Below, in pieces: positions 22,170 through 54,811 of a stretch of DNA of 64,000 nucleotides. A model generated the notes under the pieces. That model worked only from the letters and a program-made list of their open reading frames with translations. It did not search any database and was not told the origin of the DNA. The stretch lies in the NCBI GenBank assembly GCA_030830965.1, contig JAURLX010000004.1, positions 248,001-312,000 on the forward strand. The letters are read 5' to 3'. The stretch is from Verrucomicrobiota bacterium (GTDB lineage Bacteria; Verrucomicrobiota; Verrucomicrobiia; Opitutales; UBA953). The stretch's first letter is position 1, and each line of letters opens with the position of its first letter. The translations under genes were made by a program, and so were the position numbers.

Positions 22170-22209
22170 AAAAAAAAGCCCCGCCCTCCGGGAAGGAAGG
22201 CGGGGGCTG
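22170..22209 (-). terminator. Intrinsic terminator after rpoC
   Basis: Minus-strand reading: an AGCCCCCGCCTTCC arm, a short loop, a GGAGGGCGGGGC arm, then eight consecutive T (22177-22170). It begins 15 bases after the rpoC stop, so it closes the rplK-rpoC transcription unit and separates it from the export operon. Confidence 0.88.
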
Positions 22210-53323: not shown

Positions 53324-54811
53324 TCAGGACGGACGACGGAGGCGGCCCGCGGGGACGGGACGGAGCGCCGTGAACTCCGCGCCCAGGGTCTCCTTCAGCT
53401 TCTCACGGAGCGCGGCCGGGAGCGCGTCGACCGCCGACTGGAAGTCCTTGTCTCCCGGGAACGCCGTACGGCCCTGCTCGGAGACGGAGCGGACTTCATC
53501 GCCGAGATCGGGGAATACGAATTCCTCCCGCCGGCCGGCGAGGTCGGCCGCCTCCTCGGCGGCGGCGACGTCGAGAGGCGGCGCCGCCTCATCTTCCACG
53601 GAGGACGGGGCCGGAACTTCGGGCGGCGACGGCCGTGCAAGGGCAGCCGGCGCGGCCGGCGGGGGCCCTATTTTTTTTTGGCCGGGCTCCCTGGGGAGTC
53701 CGGCTGCGGCGGCGGCGATGTCCTTGATGAGCGCGTCTATCGGCCGGGCTCGCGCGCTTTCGATGGCCTGAAGCATGGTGACCTCGAAATTGGCCCGTGG
53801 GGAGAGTCCATGCCGGATGCCCTGCTCGCCCTGCTGAAGGCACTCGAGCAGCCGGACCAGCTGCTCGGTGGGGAGGGGGCCGCCAAGCAGGACGGACGAG
53901 CCTCCCTTGCGCACGGAGTCGAGCGTCGCGAAACGCACGCGGGCCTGAAGGTCGGCCAGAACCCGCAGCAGGTCCCTGCCCTCCTCGTGGAAGGCGTCGC
54001 AGAGGCCGAGCGCGGCGGGCCCGTCGCCGAGCGCAAGAGCCTTGGCGAGATCCTCGACCTGCCGGGCGGAGGCGAGACCGTAGATGGAGAGCACGTCCTC
54101 CTCGGAGACCTTGCGACCCGAGAATGAGATGACCTGGTCCAGGATGGACTGGGAGTCGCGCATCCCTCCGGCCGCGAGGCGGGCGATGGCCTTGAGCGCG
54201 GCCCGGTCGGCCGTGACGCCGTCCGCCTTCACGATGCGCTCCAGCTGGTCGGCGATGACGTCCTCCTCGATCGGGTGGAACTCGAGCCGCTGGCAGCGCG
54301 AGGTGATGGTGGGGAGCACCTTGTCCGACTCGGTGGTGGCGAGGATGAACTTCACCCAGGCAGGCGGCTCCTCGAGCGTCTTGAGCAGCGCGTTGAAGGC
54401 GTCCTTGGTAAGCTGATGGACCTCGTCGATGATGAACACCTTGAACTGGCAGGAGCCCGGGGCGAACTGGCACTCGTCACGTATCCGCTTGGCATCCTCG
54501 ATGGACCGGTTGGAGGCGGCGTCGATCTCGACCACGTCGAGGCAGCTGCCCTGCTCGATCGCGAGGGCCGCGGGGTCGTCGGCCTTGAAGTCGGACTTCG
54601 GGCCGCCGGCGCAATTCAGGGCCTTGGCGAGGATGCGGGCCGTGGTCGTCTTCCCCGTGCCGCGGGGGCCGACGAACAGCCAGGCGTGCGGCAGGCGTCC
54701 GCCGTCGAGGGCGTTGCGCAACGTGCGCACGATATGATCCTGCCCGACCAGCTCCTCGAAGCGGCGTGGCCGCCAGCGGCGGGCGATGACCTGGAATGCC
54801 TTGTCGGACAA
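53324..54811 (-). CDS. dnaX: DNA polymerase III subunit tau (and probably gamma by frameshift)
   Basis: The 495-residue clamp-loader ATPase. Walker A is GPRGTGKT (48-55), Walker B has VFIIDEVHQLTKDAFN, and the sensor region has ATTESDKVLPTITSRCQRLEF. Domain III is followed by a Pro/Ala-rich linker (about residues 385-425) and a short C-terminal domain. Of the four zinc-ligand cysteines of most DnaX proteins, only LNC and GSC remain; the middle pair is missing. Codons 378-381 (QKKI) contain a run of nine A with flanking stimulators, so a shorter gamma-like product (407 residues by -1 shift) is likely. See the slippery-site feature. Confidence 0.95.
   Translation of the reverse strand: MSDKAFQVIARRWRPRRFEELVGQDHIVRTLRNALDGGRLPHAWLFVGPRGTGKTTTARILAKALNCAGGPKSDFKADDPAALAIEQGSCLDVVEIDAASNRSIEDAKRIRDECQFAPGSCQFKVFIIDEVHQLTKDAFNALLKTLEEPPAWVKFILATTESDKVLPTITSRCQRLEFHPIEEDVIADQLERIVKADGVTADRAALKAIARLAAGGMRDSQSILDQVISFSGRKVSEEDVLSIYGLASARQVEDLAKALALGDGPAALGLCDAFHEEGRDLLRVLADLQARVRFATLDSVRKGGSSVLLGGPLPTEQLVRLLECLQQGEQGIRHGLSPRANFEVTMLQAIESARARPIDALIKDIAAAAAGLPREPGQKKIGPPPAAPAALARPSPPEVPAPSSVEDEAAPPLDVAAAEEAADLAGRREEFVFPDLGDEVRSVSEQGRTAFPGDKDFQSAVDALPAALREKLKETLGAEFTALRPVPAGRLRRPS
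53646..53692 (-). promoter_or_regulatory. Programmed frameshift cassette in dnaX
   Basis: Read on the minus strand: AGGGAG (53692-53687), a 7-base spacer, nine A (53679-53671), then after 10 bases a hairpin GCCGGC-CGC-GCCGGC (53660-53646). The E. coli dnaX signal has the same three parts, with AGGGAG before A AAA AAG and a stem-loop after. A -1 slip on A AAA AAA leads to a stop at 53589. Loss of one A, by transcript slippage, puts TAG directly after the run (380 residues). Confidence 0.65.

Follow-up and report, generated by a model that had tools for sequence, protein, structure and literature searches.

The window, that is, the whole 64,000-nucleotide stretch of Opitutales DNA analyzed here, carries on its minus strand a dnaX gene, which encodes the tau subunit of the clamp loader. 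The NCBIfam profile TIGR02397 matched with 368 bits (cut-off 250), and residues 1–366 of the protein were 91% identical to the nearest named relative. The best named relatives were records titled Opitutae, Opitutales or Verrucomicrobia, and 80 loci were kept of 455 confirmed. A run of nine A's, with several sequence elements around it, lies where a variable linker joins domain III to the tau tail. The features discussed below are:

53324–54811, minus strand: dnaX, clamp-loader tau subunit; open reading frame of 495 amino acids with a TTG start, identified by NCBIfam and Pfam profiles
53704–53695 and 53690–53681 (arms) with 53694–53691 (loop), minus strand: upstream hairpin, proposed slippage stimulator; one mismatch, one base before the A-run
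53692–53687, minus strand: AGGGAG, Shine-Dalgarno-like; GGAG within the 3' arm of the hairpin, first two bases in its loop
53671–53679, minus strand: slippery A9 run, codons 378–381 (CAA AAA AAA ATA)
53668–53670, minus strand: TAG adjoining the A9 run, a stop only with one A lost, predicted to give a 380-residue gamma
53327–53670, minus strand: tau-specific tail of 115 codons, which follows codon 380 and whose first codon begins inside the A-run
53660–53646, minus strand: downstream GC palindrome GCCGGC-CGC-GCCGGC, judged to lie outside the signal
53589–53591, minus strand: stop for one A gained or for a -1 ribosomal slip, predicted 407-residue product

An initial annotation of this DNA had described AGGGAG, nine A's over codons 378–381 and the GC palindrome as a complete E. 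coli-like frameshift cassette, and all three elements were confirmed at their places in the sequence. The product lengths that it gave were also right, with 495 residues encoded, 380 after removal of one A and 407 through a -1 slip ending at 53589. The 407-residue product results equally from one A added to the run.

The A-run is conserved in most of the order

In shuffled sequence, A9 was expected 0.04 times per window. The dnaX run is the sole A9 on either strand of its own genome (1,835,002 bases, 87% complete), which proves little by itself, because the window figure scaled up gives about one by chance. It is the place and the conservation of the run that exceed chance. Comparison of related genomes, which the initial annotation had proposed as a check, showed the run to be kept: a run of A8–A13 was found at dnaX codons 365–391 in 135 of 150 Opitutales genomes (one A8, 57 A9, 72 A10, four A11 and one A13). 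By comparison, codons 1–365 of the same genes held three runs of A8 or longer in 164,250 nt. Of 94 genomes of the class that lie outside the order and had a dnaX match, 48 were examined, and one of them had an A8, about 60 codons further on. All 80 named loci had A8–A11, their species largely overlapping with the set of 150. We conclude that the A-run in dnaX is a real, selected feature.

The 150 distinct genomes were drawn from 57 genomes searched first (the window's own included), 132 genomes of the order, and members of the order met in the outgroup search. Genomes lacking a dnaX match (for example, 10 of the 132 in the order search) fall outside this set, as do the matched genomes G095, G097, G110, G144, G157 and G160, and G016, whose contig carries only the end of dnaX with a run of A9. 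Two genomes (G143 and G154) had two dnaX matches each on separate contigs, from duplication or a mixed bin. Three loci titled Polynucleobacter meluiroseus (L068), Akkermansia muciniphila (L091) and Proteobacteria bacterium (L132) carry a dnaX near that of Opitutales; these names look wrong, or the bins are mixed.

The 15 genomes without an A8 run belong to families f5 (one), f6 (one), f7 (four), f8 (one), f25 (four), f27 (three) and f28 (one). The run-less genomes of f6, f7, f25, f27 and f28 (e.g., L055, L054, L240, L249 and L247) are small, at 0.8–1.3 Mb, and four examined genomes of f26, also of about 1 Mb, retain A9. In the run-less f8 genome (G043, locus L044), a single G breaks the A-run at about codons 379–382 and TAG still follows.

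At the codon level, AAA at codons 379 and 380 was invariant in 48 of 48 distinct sequences from the genus and the nearest named relatives, in which AAA makes up 31% of Lys codons and Lys is mostly AAG. Over codons 1–380 of these 48 sequences, synonymous constraint peaked at codons 364–380, followed by windows at codons 4–16. Across the 135 order genomes the run occupies all three codon phases (104, 17 and 14 genomes).

Long A-runs are otherwise scarce in the genus. Among 41 genus genomes the dnaX run was located in 37, and in 26 of these it was the only A9, the other 11 having at least one more. G005 and G021 had no A9 at all, and G265 and G266 had A9s in genes without assignment. As raw counts, these are consistent with the published proposal of selection against slippage-prone runs (PMC1088944). 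An exception in length is a run of 17 A's in G015 (contig C27, positions 1059–1075). The window's own genome has three further A8 sites, one of them inside the window at 22170–22177. This is the only other A8 in the window, and it is the minus-strand T8 tail of a strong terminator-like hairpin, probably a terminator; the gene just before it, named from its sequence, is presumably rpoC.

There is next to no chance that no programmed event takes place here and that the A-richness is incidental to a lysine-rich linker. The position of the site in the variable linker would suit such a reading, but the preference for AAG, the use of all three codon phases and the scarcity of A9 elsewhere in the genus do not, and the out-of-frame tau tails in 68 of 132 genomes, presented next, already disfavor it.

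The encoded frame flips while the tau tail persists

Whether the DNA encodes the long or the short protein differs among the relatives. In 132 callable genomes, tau was in frame in 64 and a short gamma-like form was encoded in 68; tau would be restored by the loss of one A in 22 of these and by the gain of one in 46. The tau frame was taken as the longest downstream frame, with G128 assigned against that rule; three genomes with A8 or longer (G093, G096 and G131) had too little sequence past the run to be called. On a FastTree phylogeny of DnaX residues 1–366, the encoded frame switched at least 12 times, and families f1, f8, f20, f22 and f24 were mixed. The short-form state also occurred in six single-contig genomes (G068, G071, G129, G149, G161 and G247), so that it is not merely an error of metagenome-assembled genomes (MAGs).

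The out-of-frame tails are still recognizable. With a threshold of E ≤ 1e-3, a hidden Markov model built from the 64 in-frame tails recognized 50 of the 68 tails that lie out of frame, each in the frame predicted for it, and missed 18; the other two frames gave no match at this level. Median pN/pS of the tail was 0.52–0.73 in nine families wholly or mostly of the short form and 0.58–0.75 in three wholly or mostly of the tau form, which, at saturated pS, is weak evidence of constraint. To judge from these sequences, species whose DNA encodes gamma thus seem to go on making tau, and this for both shift directions. Taken together, the frame flips and the retained tails mean that many Opitutales species must read more than one frame.

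Such indifference to frame points to transcript slippage of the Thermus kind, which the initial annotation had named as its alternative, and away from a -1 ribosomal cassette as in E. coli. Ribosomal frameshifting would need a separate mechanism for each direction, whereas a polymerase that adds or drops an A covers all cases. Shifts in both directions within one gene family are also the published criterion for transcriptional realignment, as given by Antonov et al (PMC3711429).

It is highly improbable that dnaX is instead a phase-variable contingency locus, at which replication slippage toggles whole lineages between tau and gamma coding. Run length does vary between species (A8–A13), and three members of the home genus set differ from A9 (A10, A10 and A11). 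These three could be assembly errors, as most of the genomes are MAGs and the length of a homopolymer can come out wrong in assembly. Within families, on the other hand, run length is near-constant (A9 in 36 of 42 genomes of the home family f1, A10 in 8 of 8 in f11 and in 7 of 7 in f17), and the tau tails remain recognizable in the short-form genomes. Loss of tau should moreover be lethal, as judged from E. coli.

Stops close the frames that do not encode tau

In the window's own genome, a transcript with one A fewer meets an immediate stop, and one with one A more a stop 27 codons on. The first of these is fixed in the home family, as TAA or TAG directly follows the run in the one-A-deleted frame in 36 of 36 A9 genomes. 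The stop in the one-A-more frame, which is also the frame of a -1 slip, is scattered from 3 to 120 codons on in the same genomes. For the order as a whole, stops in the non-tau frames came earlier than after permutation of the tail codons, with 19 of 21 families below 0.5 (Wilcoxon P = 3e-5; P = 0.0002 with G128 assigned by the longest-frame rule). Families f15 and f16 depart from this trend. The order-wide run, the off-frame stops and the retained tails together support the initial annotation in its reading of the run as slippery and as a likely source of gamma beside tau.

An immediate stop would also serve a +1 ribosomal frameshift, in which the peptidyl-tRNA-Lys would slip forward in the A-run while the rare AUA codon occupies the A site, giving the 380-residue gamma at once on TAG or TAA. 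Over codons 1–380 of the genus set, 49 of 1250 Ile codons are AUA, and the +1-frame stop is immediate in all 36 A9 genomes of the family. We nevertheless regard this explanation as very unlikely. Four A's would suffice for it, yet the runs are eight to thirteen long; it is of no use to the 46 short-form genomes in which tau requires an added A; and 13 of 21 families have no run followed by TA, and hence no AUA there.

The elements of an E. coli-type cassette do not behave as a unit

The three elements in the window invite a reading as a -1 frameshift of the E. coli type, in which AGGGAG would pair with 16S rRNA, the ribosome would slip by -1 on A_AAA_AAA while stalled by a downstream hairpin, and a 407-residue product would result. 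Their presence speaks for this reading, and so does the Shine-Dalgarno-like motif, which 38 of 42 home-family genomes retain, where 7.1 would be expected from synonymous codons. Within the home genus alone, in fact, the near-fixed frame and the excess of this motif would also be predicted by ribosomal frameshifting. Elsewhere the motif fares differently: with the exception of f2 (5 of 7 against 2.1), the other 20 families have it about as often as synonymous codons predict, or less often. The motif also overlaps the 3' arm of the upstream hairpin.

The downstream hairpin, in turn, proved not to be conserved. The palindrome occurs in 1 of 42 family genomes, and a perfect 6-bp stem starting 6–16 nt past the run in 5 of 42. 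The 15-nt palindrome taken alone had a z-score of -2.2, and the 45 nt downstream of the run folded no better than dinucleotide shuffles (z 0.06). Against synonymous versions the downstream fold was not clearly better, either in the window gene (P = 0.21), in the home family (mean z -0.67 and mean P 0.30, with lower values in single members such as G163) or over 21 families (mean z -0.23, P = 0.41). Stable downstream folds did occur in single genomes, namely G163 of the home family and the one f16 genome. We therefore rejected a downstream hairpin as a shared feature on the shuffles, the synonymous versions and its presence in the family. A search against Rfam returned over the A-run only a sub-threshold, chance-like hit to BjrC68 on the other strand (20.3 bits, E = 0.029; gathering score 39), and at gathering scores only two tRNAs in the whole window.

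The heptamer does not fit either. The site reads CA A_AAA_AAA_ATA and lacks the E. coli-type A_AAA_AAG, and A_AAA_AAA is described as the weaker frameshift site of the two (PMC5009743). The stop in the -1 frame is unconstrained, and it is the stop of the other frame that is fixed. The 22 genomes in which tau requires the loss of an A are left unexplained, and since the tau-encoding frame flips both ways among relatives, one directional ribosomal cassette does not account for the data. The claim of a complete E. coli-like cassette thus stands for the presence of its elements and fails on the heptamer, the conservation of the palindrome, the selected frame and the frame flipping. As the main reading we rejected it on the heptamer, the downstream hairpin, the position of the -1 stop and the two-way frame flips, and consider it unlikely to be the mechanism in the window.

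In one single-contig genome of the 15 without an A-run (G040, locus L041), an in-frame A_AAA_AAG is found at codon 406, and the -1 frame reaches a stop two codons later. Here the A-run may have given way to a site of the E. coli type.

A hairpin directly upstream of the run in the home family

Immediately 5' of the A9 run, the transcript can form a hairpin, which has nine pairs, one mismatch and a loop of four bases and ends one base before the run. Its predicted energy is -17.3 kcal/mol (z -3.1), and one of 200 shuffles was equally good. Within the window dnaX its 30-nt window ranks in the best 0.7%, and the mean within-gene percentile was 1.1% in f1 and 0.6% in f20. Against synonymous versions of the window gene alone, the hairpin reached P = 0.077. 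The site coincides with the peak of synonymous constraint at codons 364–380, where amino-acid constraint overlaps.

Covariation was assessed on 31 of 42 distinct 30-mers, which came from seven families and covered 65 of the 80 named loci; ten with another codon phase were left out, as was L119, whose loop is three bases longer. In this set, 85.7% of cells paired, against 82.1% in shuffles and 18–50% when slid. Double-change cells numbered 9 against 2.8 in shuffles, and further pair types 8 against 7.9, hence without excess. Compensatory examples among the relatives are G-C to A-U at columns 12:29 and C-G versus A-U at 14:27, the latter pair being unpaired in 14 of 30 sequences. RNAalifold on its own retained 5 of the 10 hairpin pairs. 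Four loci (L103, L180, L185 and L189) still form 8 or 9 of the 10 pairs and have no Shine-Dalgarno-like GGAG, GAGG or AGGA (L103 judged by eye).

The hairpin is strong in f1, in f20 and in f9, f12, f16 and f23, each of these four represented by a single genome; in other families it varies or is missing. As an order-wide feature it was rejected (21 families, mean z against synonymous versions -0.43, P = 0.08; within-gene percentile P = 0.0006). A hairpin in the top 10% was present in 63 of 76 'minus' genomes and 17 of 56 'plus' genomes (Fisher P = 1e-9, kinship ignored). By family, the association of hairpin and slip direction had P = 0.05–0.07, with too few independent pairs to decide. Over the order, the hairpin thus tends to accompany lineages that would profit from losing an A, and kinship may be the explanation.

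Discussion

Our analysis makes it probable that transcripts slip at the dnaX A-run of this organism and that long and short clamp-loader proteins arise from one gene. We infer both the transcriptional nature of the step and the production of the two proteins from comparison of the genomes. RNA polymerase would realign the A/T hybrid on the A9 run, so that some transcripts would carry fewer and some more than nine A's. A transcript with nine A's (or 9 ± 3n) would be translated into the 495-residue tau, one with eight would lead the ribosome straight onto TAG for a 380-residue gamma, and one with ten would give a gamma-like form of 407 residues.

In the home family, a nascent-RNA hairpin just before the run may favor the loss of an A, biasing slippage toward deletion as in the Roseiflexus insertion sequence. 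This role is suggested by the fixed off-frame stop of the family, which sits in the one-A-deleted frame in 36 of 36 genomes. A broader version, which we offer tentatively and at somewhat less than even chance, is that in f1 and at least two other families (f20 and f23) the hairpin acts like that of a terminator, pushing the polymerase forward so that one A is omitted and the fixed stop yields gamma, and that presence or absence of the hairpin sets whether a lineage relies on loss or gain of an A. If true, an essential housekeeping gene would carry a programmed transcriptional deletion under the direction of a hairpin.

The textbook account of dnaX recoding rests on few organisms. That most of an order keeps the slippery run while its DNA swaps between the long and the short product suggests that selection sees the output and not the encoded frame, and argues for the importance of a gamma-like subunit outside E. 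coli and Thermus. A short dnaX frame, as found in about half of the genomes of the order, should not be taken automatically for a sequencing error or a defective gene. The coexistence of lineages that have the hairpin and lineages that lack it offers natural variants for the study of RNA structure and slippage direction.

The closest precedent is Thermus thermophilus dnaX, where transcriptional slippage occurs at A9 with tau in frame (Larsen 2000, as cited in PMC1088944 and PMC5009743); these papers treat as established both slippage in Thermus dnaX and slippage by bacterial RNA polymerase on runs of nine A's or T's. The window gene shares with it the nine A's, the in-frame tau, nearby stops in the other frames and the expectation of mixed transcripts. 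It differs in that Thermus transcripts are described as gaining A's in falling proportion, whereas here the fixed stop lies in the one-A-deleted frame; it also has an upstream hairpin and belongs to a different phylum. With E. coli dnaX, as portrayed in PMC5009743, it has in common the gene, two products and a Shine-Dalgarno-like motif upstream of the A's, and it departs in the heptamer, the conservation of a downstream hairpin, the selected frame and the frame flipping.

Antonov et al (2013, PMC3711429) list 17 dnaX genes that need recoding for tau, nine of them with A10. These resemble the 68 short-form Opitutales genomes, most of which have A10, whereas in the window genome tau is the in-frame product. 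With four Verrucomicrobia genomes in the table of that paper, the set may already include some Opitutales. The literature titles and abstract openings examined contained no description of dnaX from Opitutales, and a prior mention is possible.

For the hairpin, the nearest parallel is the Roseiflexus IS630 element, in which stem-loop-mediated slippage with a hairpin directly 5' of the slippery run leads to omission of one base (Penno 2015, as cited in PMC5009743). Both have a stable inverted repeat directly 5' of the run, and the loss of one base from the transcript described there is predicted here. The Roseiflexus run is U5C5 rather than A9, its product is a transposase, and the stem-loop was experimentally required there, as summarized in that source, whereas its role here is predicted. 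Slippage in dnaX as such is already known; the extent of the frame flipping and the upstream hairpin look new.
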